From Diaporthe sp. PMI_573 (taxonomy: Eukaryota; Ascomycota; Sordariomycetes; Diaporthales; Diaporthaceae): 64,000 bases of DNA. A model generated the notes under the pieces. It had not been told where the DNA came from, made no database searches, and saw only the letters and a list, made by a program, of their open reading frames with translations. The stretch spans positions 1 through 64,000 of the forward strand of contig JAJTUP010000156.1 in assembly GCA_021399435.1 (NCBI GenBank). Direction: 5' to 3'. This document shows, piece after piece, positions 1-48,116 of this stretch. Numbering within the stretch: the stretch's first letter is position 1; each line of letters begins with the position of its first letter. The translations under genes and the position numbers were made by a program.

Positions 1-2435
1 CTAAAATATATCCCAGCGGACATAAAGCTATCTCCAGGTATACAGGTAGCTGAGCTACACTATGTAAAACCGCAATATAATTAGCCTGTAGAGCAAATAC
101 TAAGTATAGTATTGTATATAGAGCCGGCCTAGATAGCTCTACCACACTAAATACCCCTATCCCCTATAGAAAACTAACTCTATAGAGACTAAAAACAATA
201 GGGTCTTTAAATTATAGAGGGGTTTAAAGAGCTAGCTAGCTAGGAGCCAAGTAAATATAAGATTATATGGTTTAAGACTCTACAGCTGCCTATACCCCTA
301 CCCGATCTTATTTTATTTCAAGACTAGCTACAGTCTATACTTTATAATAGGCTTATATTCCCGGGTTAAATCAAGATAGCTATTATAGATTATATCTTAA
401 TATAAAATAAATAGTATGCCAAACATTTTTTAGTAAGGTGGTTAAGAGAGATATAATATTAAAAGAAATAAGGCTTTAGATAATAAGATTAGAAGACTAA
501 TAATAGTCCTAAAAGCCACTACTGCTAATAAGTATTAATACCTTAACTACTTACCTTTAGGAGGGACCACATTACCGGGGCAATAATAAATCACAGTTCT
601 GTATAATAGCTATATAATAAGCTGTAAATATGGCTAGATTGTATCAGCAAGAAGAACCTTAATATACATATAGACCGTTATTTCTAGGAGCTTGGTCAAT
701 TTGGGTATATTCTACCATTTCAAAGGATAGTTGCCTAGTAACAAAAGTGGGGGAGGGCTGGGTATAGCAATATAATGCTTTCTTAAGTAGAGTATATATA
801 GATGGCCTTTTAGTCAACAAGGTATATTATACAATTTGACGACTAGTCAAGCAACATAATTATATTAAAGTATAGTTAGTCAGGGTATAATTTTCCTAGA
901 TTTTTAGTACTATTACTACTACTAGTTAAAGTAAGCTATAATTACTTACCACCCTTTTAGGTCTCTAGATAAAAGTCGCCATAATACTATAACGAGTAGC
1001 CCTGGTTAGACGGCCAAACAAGAATTAAAGGTAGAAAGCTTAACCTAACCAAATCCTCATAACTGTAAAGTCTTAAGAGTCCTCTATAAGATTTCCTTCC
1101 TTAAAACTCCTTGCCTTCTACGCCGCTACTAAGCCGGTAAACAAAGTATTCAGGGTAGTATATTGTTTATCAGCAAGATCAAATTAGTTAGTTGCTATAA
1201 ATAGAGCCCCTGCTTAATACTATAACTAATAATACTCAAGCTCTTAGGAAAGGCTAAAGAAGTAGGATATTAAAATCTAATTATAACGGCAGCTAGTTAG
1301 TTACACCAGAGCAAAGCACGGCTACGATTAAGCTATTAACTGCGTGCTTTAAAGAAATATACCGCCTCGGCCATGTAAGAGAAGAGCCAGAGCTCTTAGT
1401 TAGCCCATTAAAAACATAGAGATATACGCTACGCGTTTATTTAGAGGTAGGGGATTCTTGTAATAGTAAGGTTTTCCGCCTTGTACCGTGCCCCTTTACT
1501 ATTAGGAAAAAAGTACTTAGAATCCTAATTACCTGTATATAGTACCAAATATTTTAGTAACCTCCTTGACTACTAAATAGTACCGTACCTTTTTTCTTCT
1601 TGCTATTATTACTACTTATTTAGGCAAGTAAATTAAGCTGTTATAAATCTTTATAAAAAGATGTTAGATTTTAATATTTCTTTAAGAATCACAAAATTTC
1701 TATACAGGCACTCTGCTCTAGCTCTTCTACTACTCGGCTTTACCCTACACTAGGCAGAACTCAAGGAGGAACCATAGCTAAAATAGCTGCCTAGGTATAG
1801 CCAACAATTTCTTGCCATAGATCTACCTTACCAATATAGCTTTAACTACTTAGCAAGCTAAATAAGGAAAAAGTATAAATAGACAGCATGTTCCTCCTAA
1901 TTTCTATACTTGTAAACTCCTAACCCCTTATACTCTCAGACTTTTAAACTCCTATAGTTATAAAATACTATTACTACTCTCTCGTCTTTACCTTTTTACC
2001 CTCTATCTTCTACTAAACACAAATTATAAACTATATCTTAGCTACAAACTATATATAACAACTGGTTTTAGGACCAAATACTTATATATATTAAGCAGCT
2101 CTTGTAATAAATACAGCCTATAGTGCTTAATATAAAAGTTTAATCAATAATTAAACAAGAGTACATAACAGCTTTATCCGGGAAACCAAGCACTAATACT
2201 ATAATCTAGTTTAATATATCTAGTTCTATAGGCAGCCTAGGGTATTTAAAATAAGACACTTAGGCATTAATTATTACAGGCATTATCTCTACTACGCTAA
2301 AATATAATTAGAACAGCATTACTCTTATTTCTATCTTTACCCCCTCTGGCCTCAATAAACTCAAATATAATACTATTTAGAAAGACAATATATAAACTAT
2401 ATATAATGCAATAACCTATATTAGCTAATTTGCTA
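1..2435. other. AT-rich RIP-degraded DNA, no gene recognised
   Basis: This stretch has no open frame of useful length and is rich in TA, TAG and TAA on both strands. The wording resembles decayed retroelement DNA, but I could not match any block to a named protein family. I see no tRNA, terminal repeat or other element boundary in it. Confidence 0.6.
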
Positions 2436-5446: not shown

Positions 5447-8400
5447 ATGGCAATATTACTGGTCCCCAACTACACATACCTTGAGGCACAATGGCAGGCA
5501 GACTGTCATGACTGGAATACCCACATTACTACCACAAACAACCAACTTCCAGTACTTTCCCGACCTCCTAACCACCTAAAACTTTTCCACAATGGATACA
5601 ATACCTACAAGAACCTCAAGGCTAAACTAGACAAAGTCACGAAGCAAGCTAGTTATATAACAGCAAAGGGGGATTCTGGCCTCAACTATACCTATCTACA
5701 ATATACCCGCGGCACCAAACGCCCAACTACCACAGCAAATAACTCCTCTACCACAATCAAAGTTGGCTATAACTAGTCAGCGCTTGCTTACCATATAAAG
5801 CAGACTACTGGCAAATGGGTCCTCCAGGTCGATTGTCCAGATTACCAGTCTTACAGTCCTCAAGAAGTCAGGGAAGCCCAGTATAGCTGGGGCAAGCTGA
5901 CAGATCTGTAGCGCGACTTTCTTGCTCAGACTACTAAAGACCCATTAATCGCCAAGCCAAAGAAGCTCACAGAAGCGCTCTAACGAGAGTATCCAGGCGT
6001 TTAGCTAGAGCCAAACACTCTGAAGAACTGGCTGGCAGACTAGCACAGAGAGAAGCAAGGAATCTATACTCCAACTCAAGCAATATTGGATTTGCTTAAA
6101 GAGAAGGGATATTGGTACTGCTTCGCTACCAATAGTAACGATAATGTTACAGCAATCTTCTAGACAATAGACCAATAGATTGACTAGATCCAAGAGAATT
6201 AATTTACACAGTGCTTGTCGTTTAATTGTACCTATGCGACAAACAACAAGCAGATACCGTACTTCTAAGGCACTGCCGTAACCTACACGAAGAAGAATTT
6301 GCCCCTATTTTAAGATGTCATCAATAGTAAGGCGAAACCTAACTTCCGGTAGTTTCTACAGCAAGTTTATAAGCTCCTCCACCATTGCCAAGCAGACAAC
6401 CCAACGGTCTTTATAACTAACTACAATAGCGCTCTGATTTATACCTTTAGATACAAATTCCCCTAGGTACACCACCAACTATATATCTTCTACATTAATA
6501 TAAATGTTACCCTAAATATTAAGAAGAAGTAGCGAAAGCCACCGGGAGAGAAGGATGAAGAAGAGAAGGAAGCCAACGAGACTAAGGGAGGAGAAGACTA
6601 AGCAGAAGACCCGGCAACGGCCTTACTCAATACGCCAGGGAGAAATAAAGCCACGATACCTACAAAGGTCCCTGATCTAAAGGACATCCCCTATATCCGC
6701 CAGGCTCTATTTAATCTTCTGAAGGATTGTGCCTTCAGCAGTGTGTTTCATCGGCAGGGTCGCAGTAAGGTGCCTGAGGCAAATTGGGACAATTGAGAAT
6801 GGTCTGGACAACTTTGTATTAAATTTGAGTAGGCTTCTGTAAGCCCTCCTCACAGTCCCTCCGACATCGTCTTACCCGCAGGCACGCGTAGGTTGGCTCT
6901 AGTGTAAGAATGGCGAGGCCGGAAAATTTGCTTTTCAGACCTACTATCTTTAGGTTATAATAACTAGCCAACCCTAACCCTAACAGTAACCAAACTAAAT
7001 ACAGATAAACTTTAGAAATTAAGCTATCTAATAAACTAGGTTACATACTTTTTGGGTAAGAAATAAGGGAAATGCAGAGATACGAAGTTAGGGTCTTAAA
7101 ATAGCCTAAAAAATTAACTTATGGCTACCAAACTTATCTCCCGGCGTGCACGCCCTATGGGTATATAGAGAAAATCTAGTGCCAAGTTTAGGGTAACTCC
7201 TTGCATGTAGTGCCAGTGTGTGTAGTGCCAAGCACCTTGATGAGCGTTTCTGTTTGACAAATCTGCTAAAGTTTATAGAATACTCAACTAATCGCGAGAT
7301 CTATAATACGGCTTAGTAGTACCTATAAGAGAAGTTTTTAGACCAAGTAGCAATTATTAACTACCTTTAGACTTAGTATGTTAATAAAGGAGAGAAGATT
7401 ATCGCCAAATAGGCTGTGTACAAGACCTGTAAGATCCTCAACTTTAGCGTATATACGACGTCCTCTATAGAGGCTATGTACTAAAAGCTAAAGATTTATC
7501 TTAGCTACAGTATGGGTAATGTTTTCTACCTAATTGAGGCTGCCGATAAGATAATTACGGATAGTTCTTATACCTTATGTCTTGAGGAAGCCCGTCAGAA
7601 GATATCCTTATTAGAGAAGTTCAACGGGCAGAAGTGGCTAGGCAAGCTTCTATACCAGGTCTTGTGGGCTGCCCTTAAGCTTCTCGCAACGATGAGGAAA
7701 CACACAATATGTATGCTTAAGGGGGAAGTCTTACGGGGTAATTGCTTGCCCTTAACTTGCGCCTACCCTATATTTATACAGTTTGGCTTGATCTATACTA
7801 ATTGAATGGCTGACAGAGAGGAAGCTGATTTGCCCCTCAAGAGAGAGGATATTTACAAGTCTTACTAGCTGGATCGTGACCTCTCGATCAGAAACCCTTT
7901 CCTTATAGTCCTCTCGCCAATAAAGTTACTGCAAAGAAGGAAAGACCTCGTAATGTCGCTACATTTAGTAAAGACAAAGAGGGCATTCTCAGAAGCCATG
8001 GGAAGGCCGTAATAAGCAAGAAGACAACCTTAATAACCACTAGTCTAGGTAGTAAAGCAGGTGACAAGACGAGGGCGACAACGGCTTTAGTATAATATAT
8101 TAACTCAGCATTTGAGTAGAATGACAAGACCCTCCAGTCGCTGGACTAGGAGGACACCTATAGCAGGAAAAACCAGCGAGAAGTAGTCTGACGGGACCAG
8201 CAGTTAGCAGAAGGGCTTACAAAGCAAGCAACTCGCCAGCTACCAAAGCAACAGTCTGTAGAGACAGCCTTGCCAGCAGCAATGCCCTTAACCACCAGCC
8301 AGTAGCGAAAAAGCCTCGTATAAGGGCTCGTGAGACTATCAACTAGCTGCTACAGGTAGATCTAACTGTCGAGGACCTTATCGGTAACGACGAGACCTAG

Positions 8401-8560
8401 GAGGAGATTTAGGTGCTTGGGTACAAGGAGGAACGGCCCAGGCGACGAGGAAAGAAGTAGCAAAATACCAAGGCAGAAGTTATAATAGGGGCGAGCAGAA
8501 GCGATAATGGTGGCAAGTGTATAGCAATAGATGTGTAGTTAATGACTGAAGATTAGCATT
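5447..8560 (+). pseudogene. MULE transposase pseudogene
   Basis: The N-terminal part (from 5447) resembles a FAR1-type DNA-binding region: YTYLEAQWQAD, RGTKRPTTT, then GKWVLQVDCPDYQSYSP. The MULE catalytic domain follows at about 6210-6530: LSFNCTYATNNKQIP, a Phe-rich middle, TVFITNYNSAL and FPQVHHQLYIF..NIN. In the family the first two blocks carry catalytic Asp; here both read Asn, the G-to-A change RIP would cause. After the inserted repeat, the C-terminal helical part resumes (7280-7800), including SSIEAMY..LK..L.YSMGNVFYLIEAADK. Stops are mostly TAG. No active transposase is possible. Confidence 0.8.
6761..7260. repeat. ~0.5-kb dispersed repeat, copy A (inside the MULE)
   Basis: This block matches 47031-47511 along nearly its whole length, with mainly C/T and G/A differences. 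Shared landmarks are GTCTGGACAACTTTG-like sequence near the start, CAGCCCTCCTCACAGTCCCT, a CCAACCCTAACCCTAA motif, TAGGGTAACTCCTT, and GAGCGTTTCYGTTTRACAA at the end. It interrupts the transposase gene, so it inserted after the MULE. No coding potential and no clear terminal inverted repeat were seen; it is probably a non-autonomous element. Confidence 0.75.
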
Positions 8561-8626
8561 ATGTATGGTGAACCAGTAGTTAAGATAAAAATTGGTACAC
8601 CAGGGGTACATGTTGCCTTGTACCAT

Positions 8627-8658
8627 CCGTTTCTTGCCCTGCGAATATCCCCTCTCAT
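8627..8658 (-). repeat. MULE right terminal inverted repeat
   Basis: Ends ..CGAATATCCCCTCTCAT and pairs with 5143-5174 over 32 bases. Together the two arms define the transposon ends. Confidence 0.92.
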
Positions 8659-9440
8659 ATACTATACTGTTATAATTTTAATTTACTAAATCTATATAAC
8701 CTAGCATTACGTTTAACATTTGACATAAGTACGTACTTAATATATTGCTATATAGACCAAACCTTAGTATATCGATAGCTCCTTACCAAGCCAGCAGCCT
8801 TATATAGGCTCTAATTAGGAATAATGCTAAGTAATACTTTGCGAAACATTATAAAGAAATACATAAGGCCTTAGTATTGTTCTTAGAAAAAACCACTCTA
8901 CCAGATACTACTTATGTTTAGATAGTTGTCTGGTAAATATAATTAAGACCTTAGACGACCTAATTAAATGCCCGGGGGACTAGTATATCTCAAGACTAGC
9001 CTACGTATAACTAATATTGATACTGGCCGCTCTGAAAGAAAGAGTAAAAAAAGATCTTCAATATAGGCTAGTTGTTGGCAAACTCGGCAAATGTAACAAA
9101 CGCAGCTAACAGAGTAACATACTTGCTATCGATCTCTATCTTAGTGCTATAGGAAAAGTAGATAAGGATAATATACACAGACTCACGCGCCTTGCTAATT
9201 GCTGGGCTGCCCTTGCAGGGAGATATCCACTCTTGTTAGTTATATTTACAGGTACAGCTAAAAAAATAATGTAAGTCTAGTGCTTCCTGTCTTCTTACAC
9301 CAATACTTACATCTCATAGCAATAGCCACATACCAAAAGGTAGACTTAAGTCTCTTGCCAAAGAAATCTCTCTGGTCTATCCTACTAAATTGCTCGTAGC
9401 TACAGAGCGCCTAGTAAAAGACGCAGAGTTAGCTGTTAGA
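8659..9440. other. AT-rich spacer right of the MULE
   Basis: Degraded AT-rich DNA with stops in all frames and no recognised protein motif. Confidence 0.5.
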
Positions 9441-9441
9441 T

Positions 9442-9660
9442 CAGGCCTAGTATATAATTTGTGACAAACTTAGGACCAGTTAATGCAAGTAAAAAAGATA
9501 CTGGCTTAAGGAAGTATAGAACGTTCTAGATGCTAGGTAGCGTTTCTTATTAGCAGTTAACCCTAGAGTTCTGTCAAATTAGGCCCAGTATACAATTTGC
9601 AACAAACGCAAGATATATTAATGCAAGTAAAAAAGATACTAGCTTGACTGGAATATAGAA
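9442..9660 (+). repeat. Two direct ~80-bp repeats, ~138 bp apart
   Basis: Units at about 9442-9523 and 9580-9660 share AGGCCYAGTATAYAATTTG, a TTAATGCAAGTAAAAAAGAT core and GATACTRGCTT..ATATAGAA. Most differences are transitions, which is consistent with an old local duplication that was later RIP-mutated. Function unknown. Confidence 0.65.
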
Positions 9661-10471
9661 TAGTCTGTTGGCTAGTGTATTGGCGAGGCTAGTAGAGCAT
9701 AGTTAAGTTCTAGTCAGGGGATGTATGCGGAGAGTCGGAGAAAGGGATGAGCTGGCAGGCCCAGCACATCCCGCATTTAACTTACCACGCCTTATCTTTA
9801 GCCTAGGGTTGGGAAAATTGGTATCCTAAGACGAAACTCAAGTGACTTCTTAGTCATCACAGGTAGCCGCTTTTACGGTCTCCTCAAGCCCCGGCTCAGC
9901 TTCGGCTCAGTCGCTCATCAGCCCCCCTCAGCCCCCCTCAACTCCACATCAACGCAGTGCTAACCCCTCAGGCTAAGCAGCCCCATACCCTCTTGTTAAT
10001 CCCATTTCTGGGCCCTCAACTCTCAGCCCATTCCCGTCACCCTGCCCAACTTCTAAAAATCATAGCAACACCGAGCGGGAGGAAGCCTTAGGCCTCGGGC
10101 CTCATTTTAGACCCAGGGATCCCAAATTTGGACCCCTTGGACACCAGCCCGAGGACTAGTACAGAATCGAATCCTTCGATGCCTCGGAGAGGTAGACTCT
10201 CCTTGCAATCCTCCTTGCTCCCCTAACCTGATCCTATTGCGTTGGAAAGCCACTTCCACCCTTCTCACGTCTTTGTCATACTCCTCGCCTCATTCGGGCC
10301 CTAGACTTCTATCTAGTATTTAAACTCGAATTCCTCTCAAGATGGCCAATTCTCCCACCCATTCGTTCTCAAACCTCTCCTAGTATCTATCCCTCGAATC
10401 TTTTTACAAGAACATTCACACCCACCACCCCCTTTGTTCCATTATTTCCACCTTTAAATTAACCTCTTCAA
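9661..10471 (+). other. Non-coding upstream region of the DUF3435 gene
   Basis: Composition changes here from AT-rich to balanced at about 9700-9800. The stretch has pyrimidine-rich patches (for example around 10360-10460) typical of fungal promoters and leaders, and leads to the ATG at 10472. No TATA box is certain. If the DUF3435 gene is a Starship captain, the element's 5' end would be expected in or near this stretch; no target-site duplication could be assigned. Confidence 0.45.
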
Positions 10472-13400
10472 ATGGGGAGAGTTAAGAGCGCGGCTGCCGC
10501 CCTCCGGTTAGGCTGCCAGAAAAGCGTTAAAAAAGAAAGCAACATTGTAAATAGTGAGCTAGTCCTGAAGAAACTTCAACCTACAGTAAGGCGGAACTAT
10601 AAAAAGATAATACAACTCTGGGATGAGTATTTCAACAATGACTTTCCTGGCTTGACATATGACAGTTCGCTGACTTTAAGTCGCAAATATCAGAAGCAAC
10701 ACCCAGAGGCATCGCCTTATAAGCTGAAGTCTCTTAAAGACTTCATCAGAAAGTTCGCCTACAGTATTGACGGCGAAGAAGGTGTTGACGTCCCTGGCTC
10801 GGAAACAGTGCGGAAGCAGTAGAACGCTTTCACGGCGGCTTGGCAACGCGAATACCCCGAGCGACCAATACCGCGAGGGATAGCTGCTTCTATAACACAG
10901 GTATGTGTTTGACCTAATGTCCCCTACCAATTGCCTTACAGTGCTAATTATTGCTCTAGTTTATCAATGGACCACTAGCAGAAGAGATGGGAATGCCTAA
11001 GACGAAAAGACCTCGGAGGTTTGCCACGAAGAATGTTATGCTGAACTTTGCAAGGCAGCTATGGGCGGCAGACTGGGTCGAGTTTAAACATCCGGCAACG
11101 CTCGTTGATAACTGGGGCCTTTTGCTCGGAAACGCATATTCTTCCTCCAGAATTGGTGAGTACATTGAGTCCAGCTGTCGTTTAGGCATCGGCCGAGGAC
11201 TCTATTTCAAGGTAAGTTACTATGGTTGGTTGGATGGGGATTAATGCTGATTCGGATCAGGACCTTACATTTGTTGTCTTCATCAACGAGGCTGGGGCGC
11301 CAGAATTCGCCATTTAGCTTACCCGCGACGCCAAAAATATGATGTGCACGCTAGATAAGAGGTAAGAGCCAAGATTGAGGCGCTGAGGCTTGTTCTAATG
11401 CTGCTGACAGACCACAACACGCATTATATGAAGGGACAGCACCTATGCCCCTCTGCTTCAATCCCATGCTACCTTTCCTGGCTCGGCTTCTGGCATATAG
11501 AGCATTCAGGGACTATTATGCCATCGACGGCCTCCTTAAGATCATGCCACCGGAAGGCGAAATGATGGTGATAGAATGGAAGGAAGAACTTCTTGAGACC
11601 CCATTTTTTAGGAGTCAGTCGAACGACGAAATCGAAACTGTAGGTGCCTTTAGCCATCGGCTGCGACTTCTGGGTCTTTGGGCTGGATATGCGACCCCGC
11701 CAAGGAACTATGACATTTGAGTAGAGGGTCTTTACTTAATGAGTTTGTATGCGCTGCCTTTGAGTGTCGTCCTTACTGACTCAAATCTCCCCAACAGATT
11801 AATTTGAATCTGAGGCTACAAGGATGGTGTACGCGGGGCACACCGACCCGAATACGGTTCCAAGACATTATCTGCCTCGCAACGGTGTAGACGGCCAGGC
11901 AGCATACTACAGCCAAGAAAGGCGTGCCTTAGTCCTCGATCTCTTCTGTGGACTGACAATACCCCGAAACCCAAGTTTCTGGCACTGTCTGCCTGCGAAA
12001 AAGCAGTTTGAGTGTGAGAACTGCCTGGATATTATCCACATCAACGAGGCACTCTTTACACGACGGGGCAAAACCGATAGTAAATCATTGGAAGAGCGGA
12101 AAAAGCTGTATGCGGAGAAGCGGAAATTGTTCGCCAGACAACTGAGAGATTGGCAAAAACGCCAACTAGTCAAGCATGATGACCCGCCGGGATACCATAG
12201 GGCAATTTTCGACCGTGTCCGGTTCCTTATGCCCGAAAGAGACCGTCTGGCACGAAATATTTTCGAAGTTAACATACTACGGAGCTCTACGGGCCTCGCC
12301 GTGCTCAATGATGTGTTGGCTCTTTATCAGAAGAGCTCCAACGTGGAGTGCCGCCCAGGATTGGAGCTAGATAAGTGTCAGTGCGGAAAAGGCAACGACT
12401 GGCCCTACGAATGGCGACATGTGTATGAATGCTACAAGGCGGCTGCGTCCAATGTTCATGGCTTTTCGGAGCTTTGTTTTCTGTGTAACGTGTGGTTCCA
12501 TGGAGCCGAGGGCTGGGAACGGCATTGTCGGCACCACTTGGACCACCCAGATGATCTCCCGATCTGGTGTGACCCTCTCACTTATGGCGGGGTTCTCGCT
12601 AGAGCCGGATATTGTCCTTTCTGTCTAGGGGATGAACGATTGCTGGCCCAGGTACGGATGCATCAGTTCAAGATTCGGTGGACCTGGCTCGATCACATCC
12701 AAACTCACATCAGGGCGCTTCAAGATGGGCTCGAGCCTGTAAGCTGTCCGCGTCTGCATCCAAGCTGCCCAGGGGAATTTGAGTCGGTCCTGGAATTGCA
12801 ATTCCATCTCCAAGACGCCTTTAGTGTTAAGCTCAATAAGGATACCGCAGGAACAAAGAAACATGCCCAGCGGCAGGACGATCACTCACTCCCAAAAAGG
12901 AAGAGAGCGCGACGATGCCGCAGCACCCTTAAAGAAGACGATATCGTGGCTTTCTTGCCGACTCAATACGTTTTCTCCAACACCAGTGTGGACAGCATGA
13001 AGGGCGAGCGTCCGACATCGCTAGTGTTACCCTGCATTTCCCAGGAGTCCCCGGCTTCCCTCGCTACAGAATATGAGGATGCATCCCTATCCGGCTACAG
13101 CACCCCTCTATCCTCCGCCCCATCGGAAGAGGTAATCGACCCGGCCATCTTACCAGCGGGAACGGGCGTGGATGACAAGGCCATGGACCGAACGGTTCCA
13201 AACGAATCGTATGAAGCCACGCCGGGCATACTGCATGAGAGTCAAGGTACGTGATCCTCTTACAATCAATATACTACTGGTCCTGACCGACGCTACAGGA
13301 GCTTCCCAAGGCTCATTCTCTGCTGTATCAAGTGTCACAGGGGAAGAGAAGAAGGCAGCCGCCGTAAAACACAAGATTAACCTCATTCAAACAACTGCCG

Positions 13401-13489
13401 ATCAAAGTCTCATTTATGGAAACCTGCAGCAGGAAAGCTGTGACGCAAGGAAATATAACACGTCTCTTTCTCTAGACAAGAAAGAAAAC

Positions 13490-13650
13490 GAGTTTAAAGT
13501 TAAAAGCTTGGTAGCCAAAAGGCGTATTAATAGGCAAGTATGGTACAAAATTAAGTAGAAGGGCTATCCCGAGACTGATAATAGCTGGGTAAGGAAGAAA
13601 GATATTGACATAGAGGCAATAGCTAACTATAAGTCAAGGCATCCCCAAGG
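13490..13650 (+). other. Chromodomain 1 of the DUF3435 fusion
   Basis: Reads EFKVKSLVAKRRINRQV, WYKIK-stop-KGYPETDNSW, VRKKDIDIEAIANY. This is a textbook chromodomain: the aromatic cage positions are Phe (EFKV), Trp (replaced by TAG) and Tyr (KGYP). Such domains bind methylated histone tails, typically H3K9me or H3K27me. Confidence 0.85.
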
Positions 13651-13657
13651 CCAAGGC

Positions 13658-13810
13658 GAATTCAAGTTTGAAAAATTAGTGGCAAAAAAAAAGAGAGATG
13701 GCATTACGCTATATAAGGCTAAGTAGCACAGGCAACCAGATTCTGAAAATATCTGGGTAGACAAGTGGGATATTGGTGCTAAGGTTATTACTATATTTAA
13801 GGTTAATCTT
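13658..13810 (+). other. Chromodomain 2 of the DUF3435 fusion
   Basis: Reads EFKFEKLVAKKKRDGITL, YKAK-stop-HRQPDSENIW, VDKWDIGAKVI. It has the same fold signature as domain 1. The third cage position is Gln (HRQP) rather than aromatic, so binding may have differed even before RIP. Confidence 0.78.
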
Positions 13811-13870
13811 ACCAGAGTAAATTAGTGCTAGGTTTGAAATTTAATCTTATTATATTGCAGGTTAGGAATA

Positions 13871-19431: not shown

Positions 19432-19686
19432 GCTGGTCGTGTGAGGCGAATCGATGCTGGTTTTTCTTGTCTCCGACAGGAGCTTTTGGTGCACGCTGCG
19501 CCACGTGAGGAGACGTTACGGCTGACGAAAAAAGCCATCTCAGGGGTTCACCTAAGCGCCATCCGCAGCCAACTCCGAGCCTGCTCCAGCTTGGGCACAA
19601 AAACAATTCTCGCCATCACCAATGCCACAATGGCGTCAGTGAACAGCGACGAGTGCACGGCGTGACCAAAAATCCTCGTCCGGGAT

Positions 19687-21467
19687 GTGATCGCCGATGG
19701 CCAAAGCAGAATTCAGATTGGAAACAACCACACTGAAGTCCACAACTACTACAACGAACAGAGCCGCAATGGATGCCTTTTCGACCTACGATTGACCGAC
19801 CCCCGCGACGACAAGACGCGCATCGAGCAGATAAATGGTAGCCTTCTCAAGGACTCGTACAAGTGGGTTCTAGATCACGAGGACTTTCGGCGATGGCGAA
19901 ACGACAGAGACAGCCGGTTGCTCTGGACCAAAGGCGACGCCGGCAAGGGCAAGACAATGTTGCTGTGCGGGATCATCGACGAACTATCGCAGTCACGGGC
20001 AGAAATAGCCAACGCGAACGAGGGAGATCTGTTCGGTAACGTTGCGGTGAAGATGTCGCGCCGGTTCAAGAAATTATCCCTTTCGCCAACATACCCACGT
20101 CCCGTATCATTTTTCCTCTGTCAAGGGACCGATTCCCGACTTAATAGGGCGGTAGCCGTGTTGCGAGGACTGATGTACGTTTTGCTCTATCAACAACCAT
20201 CGCTCATCTCGCACATCCAAAGCGAATATGACCATGCAGGTCGACGACTCTTCGAAGATATGAACGGATTCTACACCTTGTCCCGGGCTCTGCTTAGCAT
20301 GCTTGGCGATCGTTGCGCCGAGGGTTGCTATATGATTATCGACGCCCTCGACGAATGCGAGCAAGACCTACCACAACTCTTAGACTTTATTGTCCAGAGC
20401 GCATCTGCGTCTGCTTACGTCAAATGGATCGTCTCCAGCCGAAACAGATCCGATATTGAGCAGCTGCTGCATCGCGTTGCTTCAAAAACGAGGCTAAGCC
20501 TTGAGTTGAACGAACACCATGTCACCCAGGATGTCAATACGTACGTCGACTACAAGATCGTGCACCTCATATCGCTGAAAGGTAATAAATCACTGCAAGA
20601 TCAAGTTCGGGATGAGATGCGTCGTAAGGCCGATGGAACCTTCCTCTAGGTGGCTCTCGTCGCACAGGAACTTCAGAAAGTCCAGAGTTGGGACGTCTTA
20701 CTTGTCCTCAAGCAGATGCCGTCGGGCCCTAACGCCACTCTACGAACGAATGATGCGCCACATTCAGCAACTGCAGCCTAAAGATAGCGAGTTCTGCCGC
20801 CTCGTTATTTCGGCGGCAACTGTCGCTTACCGGCCGCTCCGCTTGTGTGAGCTGGGCGCACTATCTGGTTTGCCTCCAAATGTCACCGATGACCTTCGAT
20901 CTGTGGTAGATATGTGTGCCTCGTTTCTCACGATCCGGGATAACCATGTCTATCTCATTCATCAGTCCATCAAAGATTTCCTAAAGGAGTCGATGGCAAT
21001 TTTCCAGCATGGATTTGCCGCCGCACATCATACCATGTTCTTGAAATCGACACAGATCATGTCTGATATGTTGCGACATGATATATACGACTTACACCAT
21101 CTCGGCGCCTTTATCGACGATGTCCGCCAGCCTAAAGCGGACCCATTAGCCCCGGCACGGTACTCGTGTTTCTACTGGGTTGACCACCTTAGAGATGCTA
21201 TATCACATGGAACTTCCAGCCATCGACGACCTCCACGACGACGGTACAGTCTATAAATTCCTCAGCAAGAAGTACCTCTACTGGCTCGAATCGCTGAGTC
21301 CTCTCCGAGGCATGCCTGATGGAGTCTGCAATACTCTCATGAGGAAAATAAACCAAGACAGAATTAGCCTATTACCTAGCCAAATGCCGCTTGAACTCTA
21401 CATACTTAGTCCTACCTCTCGCCAAAGAACGGGCATGCCTTTTCAAATACATTACGCGTCCTTGTGA
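19687..21467 (+). pseudogene. NACHT-domain NLR pseudogene
   Basis: An intact frame from 19687 holds IGNNHTEVHNYYNEQS, Walker A GDAGKGKTML (residues 82-91), Walker B YMIIDALDECE (about 215-225) and FLCQGTD..LRGLMYVLL. This is the NACHT layout of fungal NLRs used in allorecognition and programmed cell death. Breaks: TAG at 20647-20649 where the family has Trp (FL-stop-VALVAQEL, RIP-type), an apparent extra base near 20725-20730 shifting into the frame carrying LTPLYERMMRHIQQL and IHQSIKDFLKES, and another frame change near 21200 before LHDDGTVYKFLSKKYLYWL. No C-terminal repeat domain is seen. The HeLo effector head is not in place upstream on this strand. Confidence 0.82.
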
Positions 21468-35612: not shown

Positions 35613-35614
35613 TA

Positions 35615-37469
35615 AGTCAAGTGGCCCCCTTTCCGCCACCCCCTGATTCCGCCCATTCCAGACGCGCGCACGCGTCAGGCACCCTCCCTTCCTTCGACCA
35701 CTATTTCTTTCCACCAGATTTTTCTCTTCCCTTCAAACTTCTCATGCCTTATCATCATCACCAAATGAAGCAATACACCGAAGAAAACGTGCTGGCGGCA
35801 CTTGAAGCCGTCGTAAACGACGCTAGTAGGCAAGAGGCCTCCTTACATTGGGGCATTCCGATGAGCACACTTCAAGGTCGCCTCGCCGGCGCCCAAAGCC
35901 AAACGAAGGCAGCAGAACCACAGATGAGGCTATCACCGTTTTAGGAAAGCAAGTTGCTTGAATTTGCCCTTACCCAGGCGTTACTAGGGCTGCCTATAAC
36001 CCATTTTAAACTAAGGGTCTTCGCTGCTCGGATAACTATATCTCAGACTCAGCCACCACTACTCGGTCGAAGCTGGTTAGTTGCTTTTCTTGTGAGAAAC
36101 CCAGAGATTTAAAGCTGCAGAAGCCGAGGGATGCACTCAAGCCGTGCCAATGGGGCAAAGACGACGATAATCAGAGACTGGTTTGCTATCTTTTGCCTCC
36201 CAGCTATTGCCAGAATCAAGCCAGAAAATCGCTATAATGCCGACAAAGCAGGTATCGCCGAGGGCAAAGGGAAGAACAGCATCATGCTCGGCCTAGCTAG
36301 AAGGAAGGTTGTGCTTTGAAAAGGCAATAGGTTATGTGTGTAGACCTCCTTTATCAAGTGTATCTCCGCCACAGGCAAAGCATGCCTTCCACTTGTGATC
36401 TTTAAGGGAAAAACGGTCTAACAGCAGTGGTTTAAATCGCTCGAAGGGCTTCAAGACTGGGAGTTTACAGCTATACTAAATAGCTAAACAGACAATGCCG
36501 TCGCCCTTGAATGGCTAGAGAAGGTCTTCATCCTTTAAACGAAGCTAAATGACCCAAAAGAGTGGCATTTATTGGTTCTGGATGGGCATAAAAGCCACAC
36601 TATACTCGACTTTATGTGGATATGCTTCTCAAATAAGATATATTATGTTTACTTGCCGCCATACACATTGCACATATTGCAACCTCTTGATATAGGGGTC
36701 TTCTCCAGTCTAAAGGAAGCCTATCGGAAGGAAGCCGGTCTAATTAACCTCTATACCAACAATACTCTTAACAGAAAGCATTTATTTCTACACTGCTATT
36801 AGAAGGCAAGATTAGCTAGTTTAGAAGAAAGCCATATACTTAGTGGCTGGCGAGGAACCGGTCTATAGCCTATTAATGTGGCAAAACCACTAATAAGCTG
36901 CCTCCTCGTCGAAAACACCAACACGACGATATCTACAACTAATTTAAGTGCCGCCATAAGAATCAGAAGGTCCCATTTAGCCAGTCAAGACTCTATTATA
37001 GCGAGAAACTATACATTAGCGACCCCATTAGTGTCCCGAGAGGTTTGGGCTGCTCTAAAGGATTTCGACCCTCAGAAATACTCAACTACAACTCAGCAAA
37101 TTCTCTTCAGGAAGGTCAGCAAAGCATACGACGAGAAAGACTGGCAATTGGGGAATGCCCTCAGAGAAAACCAGAAGCTGAAGAGTCAATTGGAAGCTAC
37201 AAGGCCGACGAAGAGAAGGAAGGTCGAAACGAGCCCCAACTTGAGGTTTGTGACTATTCGGGCAATTTGGAGGGCGCAAATCGAGGCCGGGGCAATTGAA
37301 GCTAAGTCAGCAGACGAAGAAGGGTCTGAAAACACCATAGAAGAGGAAGATTGTATCGTGGTAGGCGGGTCGTCGTTGTCAGACGACGACGAAGCCGAAG
37401 GGTAGTTGTGGTGGGCGTGGCGATTTGGTGGGCGGAAGGGGGGGCTGGCGGAAAGGGGGCCACTTGACT
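35615..37469 (+). mobile_element. Pogo/Fot1-like (Tc1/mariner) transposon with TA duplication
   Basis: 1855 bp. Inverted repeats at 35615-35655 and 37429-37469 are identical over the outer 24 bp (outer end AGTCAAGTGGCCCCC) and imperfect beyond. TA is duplicated on both sides (35613-35614, 37470-37471), as expected for this superfamily. The size and the single internal transposase gene fit a full-length Fot1-like element. The ends are well preserved, while the gene carries stops. Confidence 0.95.
35744..37405 (+). pseudogene. Pogo/Fot1-like transposase pseudogene
   Basis: Domain order: an N-terminal HTH (EENVLAALEAVVNDASRQEA, GIPMSTLQGRLAG), remnants of the CENP-B-type second HTH, then a DDE_1 catalytic domain with RYNADKAGI (first Asp), VLDGHKSHTILDF (second Asp) and LPPYTLHILQPLDIGVFS (third Asp), and a C-terminal tail with TRPTKRRKVE and an acidic end. 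In-frame TAG, TAA and TGA codons interrupt it at many points (first at 35942-35944). Most fit C-to-T change, so the element was RIP-mutated as a unit. It cannot make an active enzyme. Confidence 0.88.
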
Positions 37470-37471
37470 TA

Positions 37472-38546
37472 CAGAGCTATCAACGTCTACGATTTATCCG
37501 ACTGCTCCATGGCCCATAGTCCAGGGCGGAGTACCCCCACCCACTCTGTTCTAGACATGCAAGTCTGAGCCACATATAGAAGACATAGTTATTCGAACAC
37601 TAACATCGGTCTGATCCTGAACTGTCATTTGCAATGGGACGCCTTCATATAGAACACCTCGCATAAAGGAAAGAGTTAACCTGTTCGTTTAGCCCTAGAT
37701 TTGTGCTTTCGAGCTAAGACCCAAAGAATATATGGTTACTCTAGCTCCTCCCAGGGACAGACCGTCATCTCGACCCGCCACTGCAACCCCCATTATACCG
37801 ACCATATGACTACCAAACCGTGGCGATCGCTTTGGAACGCACGGTAGTACCTTCAACTCCCCTATGTTCTCTAGCTCCTCCCAGGGACAGGCCATCGTCT
37901 CGCCCGGCCACAGCTCGCTAACTTGCCTGCGAGCTTCATTCCAGTCTTCAGGATCCCCTTCAGAACTAGTTTACGGTTAGCAACCATCAACAGAGCTAGT
38001 CATTAGTGGAACCGTACCTAATTCTAATAGCATCAGGAACAAGTTGGTAAGCTCTTAAAAGAATTGCGCACACCACCAAGTCATATGGTTTCCGGCCAGT
38101 CTTGCATAAACCGTCTCCGCGGGAAATGGAAAAAGTCTCATGGCCACTACAGTTGTTTTCGATATTAGCGCACATTGTTTCATCATATAGAGGCTCTCAA
38201 AGGATAATTACCTATCGCCAACACCATTGAGCCAAATGCCTTGCTTCTCGTCGAGCTTTCGCATTGGACACCTGCTGCCTTTATAATTTTGTGACTGTCC
38301 TCGACTAAATTCGGCAAGATGTTTCGCCAGGAGGCAGGGTCAACTATGTGCCAGCTATGTGTATACCTATAGAGGAAATTAGCGGTGACTAAAAACAGGG
38401 GCTTGGGTTAACTTGGCTTACCCCATGCTTAGTTGGGTCAAATGTTTGCTTTGGTGAGAGATGCAAATGTCTTTGTCAAGTCGCTAGCGATACGAAGAGA
38501 AAAGGTCTTTATAATGGCATTAGCGGCCCCCGAAGAGACTCCTGCC
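37472..38546. other. Intergenic region with a duplicated 44-bp motif
   Basis: No gene supported. Direct repeats at 37739-37782 and 37869-37912 share CTCTAGCTCCTCCCAGGGAC and continue with a handful of substitutions through TCTCG..GCCAC, 130 bp apart. Function unknown. Confidence 0.5.
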
Positions 38547-39073
38547 AAGAGAAGGAGGCAGCCGCCGTAAATCCCAAGATCGACCTTATTCAAACATCAA
38601 CCAATCAAAGTCTCATTTATGGAAACCTGCAGCAGGAAAGCTGTAATGCAAGGAAATATAATACGTCTCTTTCTCTAGACAAGGAAGAAAACGAGTTTAA
38701 AGTTAAGAGCCTAGTAGCCAAGGGGCATATTAATAGACAAATATAGTATAAGGTTAAGTAAAAAGGCTATGTAGAGGCTAATAACAGCTAGGTAAGAATA
38801 AAAGATATCGGCACTAGGGCTATAGCTAACTATAAGTTAAGGCAACCCTAAGGCTAAGGCGAGTTTAAGTTTAAAAAATTAGTGGCAAAGAGAGAGGAAG
38901 ATGGCATCATGCTATATGAGGTCAAGTGGCACGGCCAACTAGAGTCTGAAAACATCTGGGTAGACAAGTAGGATATTGGGGCTAAGGTTATTGCTACATT
39001 TGAGATTGACCTTTCTAGAGAGAATTAGTGCTAGATTTGGAATTTAATCTTATTATCTTATAGGCTAGGACTC
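38547..39073 (+). pseudogene. Double-chromodomain block, copy 2, RIP-degraded
   Basis: Homologous to 13345-13870 in the same orientation. The same frame reads AAAVNPKIDLIQTS, LIYGNLQQESCNARKYNTSL, EFKVKSLVAKGHINRQI and then, after stops, EFKFKKLVAKREEDGIMLY, EVKWHGQLESENIWV. It carries more TAG and TAA codons than copy 1, but the Trp of the second chromodomain is still TGG here (VKWHGQ), confirming that the TAG in copy 1 is a mutation. No DUF3435 part is recognisable upstream, so this is a detached tail. It either comes from a second captain-like gene or moved as a separate block. Confidence 0.8.
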
Positions 39074-39133: not shown

Positions 39134-40513
39134 TTAGGTTGTCTGCTCTAGATACTTAGCTGCTAGGCTATCTACTCCAGTTTTGTTAGAAGACGTCACT
39201 GCCTCGAAGCAGCCTATGAGACGAAAGAAACTAAATTTATGAGCAAGGTAATACAACGCCAATGCAGGAATTACTTTATAGGCAATATAATAAGTGGTGG
39301 GCATGGAGAGAACTGACATTGTCTTCAACAGGTACACCATTGCTAGGAAGGGGTAGGAGCCGAAAATTGTAAGTTGAAAGTACAGGTATTCTTCTGAAAG
39401 CTGGGATTGTTGCGTCAGGTACCTCTCTCCTAGAGCAGCAGCTTGCACTAGGAAACAGTAGGCGGCTTCCATTTTGCCTGTAACACCTCCTACCATCGGT
39501 CAACGTACTTTGAGGTCTAGCTTTAAGTATGCATATCCTATTTGCGAGTACGCGAAAATATTGATTACTTACTATAGCGGCTCACGCGGCGTTTACTACG
39601 GGAAATACTGTACATATAGACCCTTAGGTAAAAATAGACATCAATCAAGGCTCCTACCTTTGTGATATCTCGATTTACGAAAGCGCCCGGCATTCCCATG
39701 CATAACCTCCCATAAAGATCTGTGCTACGGCTTCTGTTCTTCCGATTTCTGGGCCTGTCAAAATGCTGTCGTGTCCCTCGAACTTTCCATCGATTGTATT
39801 CCAGGGTGGTTCAGTTAAATCAATTAGATCAAGATGATCAAACTTGTGTGCAGCTGCCTTTGATTCATCCCACTCTGGTGGAATTGTCGTATATTTAGAC
39901 ATTAGCTCGTCGATTGCCTCTCTGTCGTTGTACAGTGAGATAGCGGCATAACTCTACTCGCTGAATAACATCTTAGGCGCCTACATAGATAGCCTTCCTA
40001 TATCTGTTGTCAACCTCAGACGTAGAGCTCCGATATAGCCTGGTCGACTAGATCAGTAGACAATAAATGTGCCTTGAGCCAATCGTTTAGCAAGTCTAGC
40101 TTTTTGTCGATAGATAAGGCTGTAGGGCTAAATATTAAGTCGAGAATTTTGGCAGAATCTGCGTCCAATCGTGCAGAGCTACTTGCTTCACCCTTGGTTG
40201 CGACAAATTTGTCGAAATTCAAGATGCTGTAGTTATAGACATCATAAAGGTGGTAGAGACCCCTCTCCTGGCTGTCACATAGGAAGTCGCATCTCTCACA
40301 ATACCACTGCCACCCGTGATATTCGTCAATATGCCGGATAGCGTCGGCATCCCGGTTCCAGTACTCCAGCCGGTGGTGAGGTTTAAGGTCTTTTTGTTTC
40401 TGGCAGAGGAGATAAAATGAAAGACTTCTGGGCTTGATAGAACGTGCGGTTTCAGACTAAAGAGTTGCCTTGGGTTTCCAGCAGGGGCTGGTCTTGGTGG
40501 TACACAGAGACAT
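39134..40513 (-). pseudogene. Unrecognised multi-exon gene with RIP-type stops
   Basis: The minus strand has a protein-like frame from an ATG at 40513: MSLCTTKTSPCWKPKATL, stop (TAG), SETARSIKPRSL, then HHRLEYWNRDADAIRHIDEY, a WYCERCDFLCD Cys cluster and KKLDLLNDWLKAHLL. A short intron may join ISELY (about 40013) to the frame ending ECRALS (about 39680), which holds YNDREAIDELMSKYTTIPPE, LIDLTEPPWN and TEAVAQIFMGGYAWE. A last exon candidate (39134-39480) is hydrophobic (LAMVYLLKTMSVL, IPALALYYLAHKF). I do not recognise the family. At least two stops fit Gln-to-stop RIP changes. Exon joints are tentative. Confidence 0.45.
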
Positions 40514-41607: not shown

Positions 41608-42602
41608 GGAGGGAAAGGCGGTTACTTTTTTAGACCTATATTGCAGCTGTTAGGTTGCTTAGCTACAATTTAGAGAGGACTCGTCTAGCAAAATGAAATA
41701 TAAAATTGCAACTATTAAACTTTTTGATGTTGAAAATGTGACTCGATTTATTACAAGATGGAAGAGGGCGTGTGCGATAAATGCATTTAAAAGAAGCCCT
41801 CCTAGGCAACTGTCACGGGGACCAGTACAAATGAGCCGGCAGCGTATAAATAACTCGATCCCGCCATGATTGTTATAAGTTATAGAATAATGAAATGCTA
41901 TGTGCGCTCCTGTGACCGGATAAGAGTCTTCTGCTAGCTGAATAATAAAAGAGTCTGGATTTAAATAAACAATACCAGAGGGATTCTAACGCCGTGTATA
42001 ATATATTGAATGAAATTCTATTGCAATTAAGTATACAGTAGATAAAGTATAGTAGTATTAATAACAATTATAATAAGAAGAGTACTGATTTCTTAGGTTA
42101 AATAGATAATTATCCACGATAGCACTGTTTCATCTCACGCCTAGTTGTTTCTCTCTAGGCTTTAGCCTAACTATTAGAATCCCTAAAACTCTTAGTATAA
42201 TACTAGTCGCTTTTCTGTCCATAATTGTAACTAAGAACTCGTCCAAGCTAACTCTGCCATATATAGAGCTGTCTATAGTAAACTAAAAGTCGCAAATAGG
42301 CGATAATAGCCCCAGCCTAAATTTTTTAGTTAGAGTTTAGTAAAACGTTCTCTAAGAACTAATAGTTCTATTTAAACTCTTATTCTTTAGACTAGAATAA
42401 TATAATTAAGTAGTAATGTTAGCGTCTTTAATCTTAGTGAGAGGCGATAATATATTTTGCCTACTAAAAAACCATTTCTTTATAAATAGACTAGGATTAG
42501 TATTATTCTATAGTAGTATAATACTTAAGCTAATAGCCTTATTTGAGAAGAACTTTATATATATCTTAGCTACCTTATCTCTAGTTATAGCTAGTATAGC
42601 TA
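41608..42602. other. Start of the right AT-rich RIP-degraded block
   Basis: Composition falls sharply in GC from about 41630. Frames are closed by TAG, TAA and TGA everywhere; the 70-codon frame at 42416 has no family resemblance and is not called. Confidence 0.55.
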
Positions 42603-44148
42603 TGTTAGGGCCTCTATGTGAGGCATAATGGTTACTGTAGTTAGAAGGAGAGAGGTCTAATATTAGGGCTAGGTATATTGTAAGACTAATTTTTACTCCT
42701 TTTATTAGTAAAACGCTAAGGCTACATTTCTTTATAGGGTATAGGCTACCTATATTATCTACTAAGACGAGAGTAGAGTATTATAATTATACCTCTCTTA
42801 AGAAGGTATATCCTTAGGCCTAGTACTATAGTAACCTCTAAATAAATTACCCGGGAGCTATTATAGTTAATTTACTTATACTTTAGCGTATATAGTCTAC
42901 CTAGCTGGCTTTATCTTATCACTATTTAAACCTTTAACTTCTTAATCCTTCTGTTAACTATTACTATTAATGTTTATTTATATATAGTTTCCTTATTATT
43001 TAGTTGCTTCTTATTAGTCTAATTAATTACTAATATTACTACTATTATATCTTATCTTAGCTTTAAGAATAACTATAAAAAGCACTCTTATTACTTTTTC
43101 TATTTAGTTAGTTATAATTTAATAAGTAGTTAGTCTAGCTTTAATATAGAGAATACTATAATACTAACCTTATTTTAGCTATACGAGCAACTGTCTAGCT
43201 TTTAAGGCCTAAGTTATAGTTTATAATTAGTCTCCCTTAGTAACAATTTACTCTCTAATTTTAGTAACTATTAGTCTTTACTTTTTTTTCTTCCCCTCTT
43301 TTATACTTCTAGTTATTTAAGTTTATTAGGCTTAAATATCTTTAATAAAACTATTCTAACTTAACAGTAGTTAGGGCCTTGTCAGGGCCTCTACGCTAGG
43401 CACAGTGGTCACCGCGGATAAAAGGGGAGAAGTCTAATATTAGGGCTAGATATATTACAAGACTAATTCTTGCCCCTTTCCTTTATAAATTATCAAGGGT
43501 TCCGTCCCTTTATAACGTATAGGCCACCTACGTTACCTACTAAGATCAAGGCAGGGCACTACAATTGTACCTTCATCGAGAAGGCATGTCTCTAGGCCTG
43601 GCGCTGCCGTAACCCCTAAGTAAATCACTCAGGAGCCGTCGTAGCTAATTTACCTGTACTTTGGCATATACAGTCTACCCGGCCGGCTTTATCTTGCCGC
43701 TATTTAGACCTTTAATCTTTCTACCCTTCTGTTAACCTTTATTATTAATGTCTATTTATATATAGTTTCCTTATTGTTTAATTATTTCTCGTTAGTCCTA
43801 TTAGCTAATATTACTACTATTATACCTTGTCTCAGCTCTAAGGACAACTATAAGGAGCGCTCTTATTATTCTTTCCGTTTAGCTAGTTATAATTTAACAA
43901 GCAGTTGATCTAGCTTTAAGATAGAAGATATTATAATACTAACCTTATTCTAGCTATAAGAGTAATTACCTAGCTCTTAGGACCTAAGGTATAGTTTATA
44001 GTGGGTCTTTCTTAGTAGCAATTTACTTTTTAATCTAGGTAGCTATTAGTCTTTATACTCTCCTCTTTCTTGTACTTTTAGTTACCTAAATTTGTTGGGC
44101 TTAAATATTTTTAATAAAACTATCTTAACTTAGCAGTAATTAGGGCCT
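42603..44148 (+). repeat. Tandem duplication of a ~775-bp unit
   Basis: Unit 1 is 42603-43379 and unit 2 is 43380-44148. Each begins TGTYAGGGCCTCTA and ends TTAGGGCCT. The units match throughout; unit 2 is visibly GC-richer (for example GGCCACCTACGTTACCTACT against GGCTACCTATATTATCTACT), so most differences are transitions. This may be a pair of adjacent LTRs or a tandem non-coding repeat; no coding content. Confidence 0.8.
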
Positions 44149-44721
44149 ATAGGTTTAATCTCTATACTTATTAGTAGTAATTGCGTTATTAATACTAACC
44201 TTTTTGTTACTACTTTTAGTGCTATAGTAGCCTCTTTTTTTCTTCCCTCTCTTATATATTCCGACCTTATTATAAGCACGGCTAACTATTATTACAAGTT
44301 ATATAAGGGCACTTTCTTAGGCTCTCCTAAGACTATATAATCTTATTAAGTAGCCAAAGAAGTAGCTGTCTGCTTGCTGGGTAATATTAAGCAATACAGG
44401 CTTTCGTATATACCTTAAATATCTAAGGAAACTACTATCTCTCTTTCAGACTATATATAAAGCTATAGCTCTAGCAATAGTTACATCTATTCTATGCCCC
44501 CTTTTTAGCAGCTTATTGTAAGCCTAGCGGCGGGATATCTAGATATTATGTATAATCTATCTAATAGGGAGAAACGCTATACTATTTAGTTAACTATAAT
44601 TAATTCTTATATATCCTGTAATCTTTATTTACAAGGCTTTTTATATTAATATAAAAATATAGTCTCTTTATTTAGTAAGGCCGTTTTTTATATAACCTTT
44701 AATATTAGCTACTTTTGCTAT
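44149..44721. other. AT-rich degraded spacer
   Basis: Between the tandem repeat and the LTR-gag units; all frames closed, nothing recognised. Confidence 0.45.
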
Positions 44722-47700: not shown

Positions 47701-48116
47701 TATAAGATTAGTAAGATACTATTTAGCCGCCAGACTGGCAAGCTAATACCTAATAATATAAGTAGCCTAATTAGATATTTTCCAGTACATTATACCTTAC
47801 CGCAACCCTGAAACTATCCTTTATATTTCCGAATCTAAAAGATCTATACTATATACTCTTTTTAAAATACCGAGAATATATAGATTTTAAACCCGACAAG
47901 ATTACTTTCTTTTTTAAGGCCTAAGACTAAAGGCTAAAATAAACCAAAGATACCTATAATCTTCTTAATAATAAGATCTACATTATATTCTCTCTTGCCC
48001 GGTCTTATAATAATATATAATTCTTCCCTTACTTTTTACTAATTATGCCTAGCTATACTAGATTATCTATATTGGTCTAAATATAAAATTTTTAGAAGCT
48101 TATAAAAGACTTAAAT
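44722..48116 (+). mobile_element. Degenerate LTR plus gag unit A
   Basis: Begins TGTGGAACGGGTGATAGC, a good LTR start. An LTR-like segment of about 510 bp (44722-45230) matches 48117-48625. Downstream, a gag-like frame from about 46352 reads MAEEDIPVVATNFF, EEIKADSIISRYYLVIKA and ASIYIFKVIERIY with TAG stops. Unit A matches unit B over its whole length except for the ~0.5-kb repeat at 47031-47511. It ends where unit B begins, so the two are in tandem. Confidence 0.7.
47031..47511. repeat. ~0.5-kb dispersed repeat, copy B (inside unit A)
   Basis: Matches 6761-7260. The flanks are like TTATTT on the left and TTATCT on the right, while the uninterrupted unit B reads TTATTTCTTAAC at the same point (near 50350), which suggests a short target-site duplication blurred by mutation. 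It lacks visible terminal inverted repeats and coding potential. Confidence 0.75.

Follow-up and report, generated by a model that had tools for sequence, protein, structure and literature searches.

A decayed gene of Diaporthe sp. PMI_573 and its fungal homologues predict a DUF3435-type tyrosine recombinase joined to two chromodomains

The window analyzed here is a stretch of 64,000 nucleotides from Diaporthe sp. PMI_573, part of contig C64 in an 83.7-Mb assembly. Its forward strand carries a decayed gene in which a predicted tyrosine recombinase of the DUF3435 (PF11917) type is followed by two chromodomains (CD1 and CD2). Six exons join in frame into 3,090 nt, or 1,029 codons plus a final stop at 13823 (+ strand), across five introns of 49-59 nt that each run GT...AG. 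The parts of the gene, in window coordinates, are as follows.

10472..10900, + strand: exon 1, helical N-terminal region of the recombinase, with a premature TAG at 10820; GT-AG border, aligned to the start of homologues P0001 and P0002
10960..11211, + strand: exon 2, catalytic box I with its Arg (SSSRIGEYIE)
11261..11361, + strand: exon 3, beta-hairpin region with a conserved Lys; premature TAG at 11315
11411..11742, + strand: exon 4, box II HxxR region, broken by a TGA at 11718; longer than in the first-pass annotation
11798..13246, + strand: exon 5, premature TAA at 11800, box III, the nucleophile Tyr (GHTDPNTVPRHY), the C-terminal DUF3435 part, a C2H2-like finger region and the start of the linker
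13247..13298, + strand: intron 5, GT...AG, 52 nt
13299..13825, + strand: exon 6, end of the linker and two chromodomains, with premature TAG codons at 13556 and 13724 and the final stop at 13823
13493-13639, + strand: CD1, matching PF00385
about 13658-13810, + strand: CD2, the second Chromo stretch

The first-pass annotation of this DNA had already joined six exons in frame, and that join was confirmed, although its borders of exons 4 and 5 (11720 and 11803) bypass two stops and were replaced by 11742 and 11798, as given by alignment with the homologues. From 11803 onward, exon 5 holds an open frame of 483 aa. The junction of exons 5 and 6 reads HESQ-GASQGSFSAV, with the same spelling in the F. 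nematophilum homologue P0001, and two homologous gene models, P0031 and P0032, stop just beyond this site (ESQGT...), as if read into intron 5. One could speculate that retention of intron 5 acts as a switch yielding a tail-less enzyme. The annotated Diaporthe sp. PMI_573 model P0033 (F5883DRAFT_668197), all of whose residues (438/438, in runs of at least 8) are present in the window frames, avoids the premature stops, shifts frame near its end and omits the chromodomain exon.

That the last exon adds two chromodomains was borne out by the Pfam Chromo model, which matches the tail in two stretches at 32.0 bits (cut-off 25.1, E = 1.2e-7). Among solved structures, CD1 is best matched by HP1 chromodomains (6asz, E = 3.2e-5), and CD2 matches CBX3 of the HP1 family (3tzd, 1.6e-5). 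The aromatic cage was tested at the cage positions of HP1, using a pattern that required the first two aromatics and left the third position free. In CD1 the cage is complete in 11/11 sequences, P0011 among them, as F-W-Y (Y-W-Y in P0010). CD2 reads F-W-Q in eight of the 11 (P0010 is without CD2, P0011 is cut short and P0012 does not fit) and so lacks the three aromatics of a cage. Mean pairwise identity among nine proteins with the tail, P0009 and P0010 being excluded (18 to 36 pairs per part), was 0.87 for the catalytic part, 0.81 for CD1, 0.74 for the finger region, 0.62 for CD2, and 0.49 and 0.38 for the linker parts. Conservation of CD1 far exceeds that of the linker, a pattern compatible with selection on CD1, and the cage and HP1 likeness of this domain are compatible with methylated-histone binding. 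CD1 would probably read methylation of histone H3 lysine 9 (H3K9), the HP1 mark, over other marks, and CD2, with its F-W-Q cage, probably serves in pairing or stabilizing rather than reading.

For the DUF3435 core assigned to the upstream part, the joined recombinase of the window scores 23.7 bits (E = 2.8e-5), just below the Pfam cut-off of 25.8 bits, and seven of ten homologues score above that cut-off (best 50.5). The three homologues under the cut-off (P0001, P0005 and P0008) are all incomplete models. The zinc-cluster tail placed after this core did not hold up: we read the residue spacing of the finger region as C2H2-like, not Zn2Cys6, and Pfam zf-C2H2_jaz matches at just E = 0.075. In a structure prediction for one homologue, its recombinase part modeled like Cre, with a Cre/lambda-Int-like catalytic fold; a full-length model of P0002 (11 sequences) reached a predicted local distance difference test (pLDDT) score of 41.3 and was set aside. 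Rows absent from the alignment carry no evidential weight, and among rows with a letter at the position, the catalytic residues are kept as R in 26/27, K in 26/26, box II H in 28/29 and R in 29/31, followed by the third-box H in 22/31 (Q in 8, P in 1) and the nucleophile Y in 32/32. The R-K-H-R-(H/W)-Y catalytic set is present in the family, and the window copy has lost box II. Intact family members probably recombine DNA.

With the joined protein as query, 11 relatives were found, of which nine (P0001-P0008 and P0010) are recombinases with Chromo. The other two are P0009 (Rhinocladiella), a recombinase without Chromo, and P0011 (F. langsethiae), in which a patatin-like phospholipase model (Pfam) ends in the same last exon, aligned to P0002 839-988; this join reflects either reuse of the exon or a chimeric gene model. 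A search with the tail alone yielded 10 relatives: eight of the nine tailed recombinases (P0010 missing), P0011 and P0012. A search with the recombinase core, which does not select for the tail, found 43 proteins, nine of them with PF00385, among only the 7,993 candidates with the most shared words; P0010 went unlisted there though it was part of the query. The nine recombinases, from two named genera and one further source, carry the tail after the same type of linker, which spans 185-237 aa from finger region to tail in the seven proteins measured. The entire order of parts aligns with full-length proteins elsewhere, beyond chance. The first-pass annotation would have been refuted if no intact homologue anywhere joined both parts; the join proved real and conserved, and that refutation failed. 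The chance-neighbor explanation is ruled out by these homologues, in which the parts follow one another in the same order, and by the tree. Judged by sequence comparison, the domain fusion is real and conserved.

The tree comprised 40 rows of the core after box III (P0022 and P0024 entered uncut; P0011, P0027, P0033, P0040 and P0042-P0045 left out). The window gene and nine tailed homologues (P0001-P0008 and P0012) fall into one 13-row clade (91/93, not starred), whose remaining three rows are the fragment P0026 and the models P0031 and P0032, seemingly read into intron 5. P0010, with one chromodomain, lies outside the clade on a long and hence unsure branch. Placed on the tree with all rows labeled, the tail requires five changes (shuffled mean 9.8; 0/500 as low); without the eleven rows of uncertain C-terminus it requires two, to be read as a gain on two occasions or as one gain plus losses. 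The C-termini of the tail-less P0009 and P0039 carry VVDLT or a similar stretch, which we take to resemble a SUMO-interacting motif.

Elsewhere in the genome, the fused gene is single-copy, last exon excepted. Its 5' flank is repeated in the genome at 7000-8666 and without match elsewhere at 8667-10471. Two further loci with a chromodomain bear on the gene.

38547-39070, + strand, in the window: solitary copy covering most of exon 6, matching 13344-13867 at 84%, with six in-frame stops
L029 (C191:199500-206500), 1874-2041, minus strand: chromodomain of a distant DUF3435 gene

The match of the solitary copy begins 45 bases inside exon 6, and no recombinase exon was found beside it. The first-pass annotation had considered that the chromodomain block might be a separate repeat; a separate copy does exist here, but a joined copy exists too. 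The C191 gene (202810-203944, minus strand) has DUF3435 matches of 66.6 and 55.9 bits and continues in frame, through four stops, into a chromodomain at 201373-201540 that contains a fifth stop; the read-through tail scores 36.7 bits with Chromo. Because the exon-5 protein of the window does not match it at E 0.001, the C191 gene is a distant relative, which suggests repeated gain of the chromodomain. In an assembly-wide neighborhood scan (39 DUF3435 loci from 53 hits; at least 148 Chromo hits, with 150 of 311 candidates scored), a same-strand Chromo hit lies within 3 kb downstream of DUF3435 at two loci, on C191 and C156, where uniform placement predicts 0.10, a model that is too lenient because transposons cluster. 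Those 53 hits do not include the gene of the window. C156 was rejected as a second fusion, as its DUF3435 hit is below the cut-off and no frame was seen to link both parts. Open two-chromodomain frames of 281-343 aa also stand alone (L017-L025, L036-L041). Four such copies sit in a 2.8-5.5 kb block at 98.7-99.7% identity and another four, in the fetched loci, are ~99% identical, so that these frames are seemingly a recently active repeat; no captain was recognized among the open reading frames (ORFs) of two of six joined stretches of their flanks.

The copy in the window is dead, a pseudogene interrupted by six premature stop codons whose first bases are 10820, 11315, 11718, 11800, 13556 and 13724. 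The direction of its decay is biased as in repeat-induced point mutation (RIP). Alignment with P0001 over 801 codons shows 127 residue differences; 66 of them fit a C-to-T or G-to-A change in the window and 21 the reverse direction, and all five stops in the P0001-aligned part fit such a change. Compared with P0026, 24 of 36 differences and the single stop (1/1) fit this direction, and four differences the reverse. No part of the gene is richer in AT than the chromodomain exon (GC 0.378, TpA/ApT 1.27), which resembles its second copy (0.384 and 1.37), versus 0.523 and 0.64 in the first kilobase of exon 5. The two copies differ at 82 sites, 67 of them transitions. This AT-richness and the transitions would fit RIP acting on the duplicated part. 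Such mutation was rated as moderate, because exon 1, outside the duplicated part, has a similar TpA/ApT of 1.29, and because (CpA+TpG)/(ApC+GpT), at 1.15 and 1.10 in the two exon copies, exceeds the range commonly called RIP.

We consider it probable that this is a conserved fungal gene for a predicted Cre-fold DUF3435 tyrosine recombinase with two HP1-like chromodomains, the tail likely tethering the enzyme to methylated-histone chromatin and biasing insertion of its element. As fold and residues suggest, the recombinase part would recombine DNA, and CD1, from its cage and HP1 likeness, would read a methylated histone, most likely H3K9me. The tail would then carry the enzyme and the element DNA to heterochromatin, where insertions would spare genes, a step proposed because of the analogy with chromovirus integrases and of the suggestion made for the separate chromodomain gene of Sanctuary. 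Insertion would be guided into silent regions, in which a new copy may harm the host little.

The integrases of chromoviruses (Ty3/gypsy) are alike in being DNA-inserting enzymes with a C-terminal chromodomain, which reportedly targets heterochromatin, as Gao et al. are said to have found in 2008. They differ in being DDE integrases of retroelements with one chromodomain, whereas the family described here consists of tyrosine recombinases with two. Cryptons are tyrosine-recombinase DNA elements also present in fungi, and we know of none with a chromodomain tail. The elements Sanctuary (ROU50) and Frontier likewise couple a chromodomain to a DUF3435 element, but as a separate protein at the element's other end, and not in one polypeptide with the recombinase; targeting of heterochromatin or of sites is put forward by the authors of both reports (PMC12506042, PMC11857905), an idea that for Sanctuary is termed "purely speculative". 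The first-pass annotation knew of no described captain with such a tail, and in agreement none turned up: no description of DUF3435 and a chromodomain in one protein was found in the open-access papers searched, including the accessible text of PMC12506042, PMC11857905, PMC10799480, PMC12289983, PMC12134995 and PMC9426589.

It is also conceivable, if rather unlikely, that the fusion is functional without choosing targets, the tail serving self-regulation by keeping the enzyme at silenced copies of its own, or the host having adopted the gene as a chromatin factor. Many DUF3435 genes are indeed reported to stand solo, away from any detectable element (PMC12134995); the searches here revealed no element borders, and all but the last exon is single-copy. 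A pure chromatin factor would not need catalysis, however, so that retention of the catalytic set in nearly every relative whose sequence covers those positions speaks against it, as does the C-to-T-biased decay of the window copy, which is that of repeats in RIP fungi.

We judge it unlikely that the gene is a Starship captain proper and that everything from about 10 kb rightwards is left over from a single Starship whose far end, as in Sanctuary, bears the second chromodomain copy. The arrangement recalls Sanctuary, where the captain lies at the 5' edge and the chromodomain gene last (PMC12506042), in that the window recombinase reads rightwards, that the chromodomain copy at 38547 is followed by AT-rich sequence beginning near 42 kb, and that the following ORF, of a type reported among Starship accessory genes in the same paper, lies between.

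19666-20646, from the ORF scan: NACHT (NPHP3_N) ORF of the NOD-like receptor (NLR) type

The ORFs scanned in between are mostly enzymes, though, and the copy at 38547-39070 represents part of the last exon of the recombinase itself rather than a gene in its own right. The family shares with the Starship captains HhpA and Sanctuary its PF11917 homology, Cre-like fold, C-terminal DNA-binding region and occurrence in Pezizomycotina, and is unlike them in its conserved double-chromodomain tail and its box II His, a position that is Tyr in the Sanctuary captain (Y424) and HhpA (Y381) (PMC12506042) and is not known to define all captains. No element borders appeared in self-comparison of the window or in genome searches. 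For these reasons, and with DUF3435 just under its cut-off, we did not retain the earlier label "captain-type". A captain-type box II pattern run over eight DUF3435 loci of the same genome gave noise only; unscored visual inspection of six of those loci revealed a YNLRY-type and a GRRG-type motif.

Very improbable is that gene finders attach the chromodomain exon, as an independent mobile or repeated unit, to any upstream gene, as the solitary copy and the patatin-like model of P0011 might suggest, since the exon's recurrence after one linker type in nine recombinases makes a chance neighbor unlikely, and the conservation of CD1 far beyond the linker and the identical exon 5/6 join in P0001 also count against it.

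Beyond tethering by this one gene family, it is tentatively possible that DUF3435 recombinases have repeatedly (in the window clade, in Phaeomoniella and in the C191 gene) built in a histone-methylation reader, as self-guided cut-and-paste enzymes that sense the chromatin state and send elements into heterochromatin and form a tyrosine-recombinase counterpart of chromovirus integrases. How Starship-type elements choose landing sites is not settled, and a built-in predicted histone reader would allow a direct single-protein test of the speculation made for Sanctuary. If true, these recombinases would have converged with chromoviruses despite a quite different chemistry, and they would offer a natural model for directing recombinases to chromatin states.

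Another feature noted in the window is a transposon.

35613-37473: Pogo-type (DDE_1) DNA transposon with ~44-base inverted ends

The genome has five more copies that match it over the same length at 87-93%. Two segments, 39303-39598 and 42131-42500, are 87-91% identical to stretches on the minus strand of C135, at about 709.0-709.8 kb and 695.2-695.6 kb, and are perhaps traces of a shared larger segment. From 42600 to 51000 lies a RIP-like AT-rich block with internal duplications of 77-79% identity, in which 42600-44000 has a TpA/ApT of 1.86 and a second index of 0.39.
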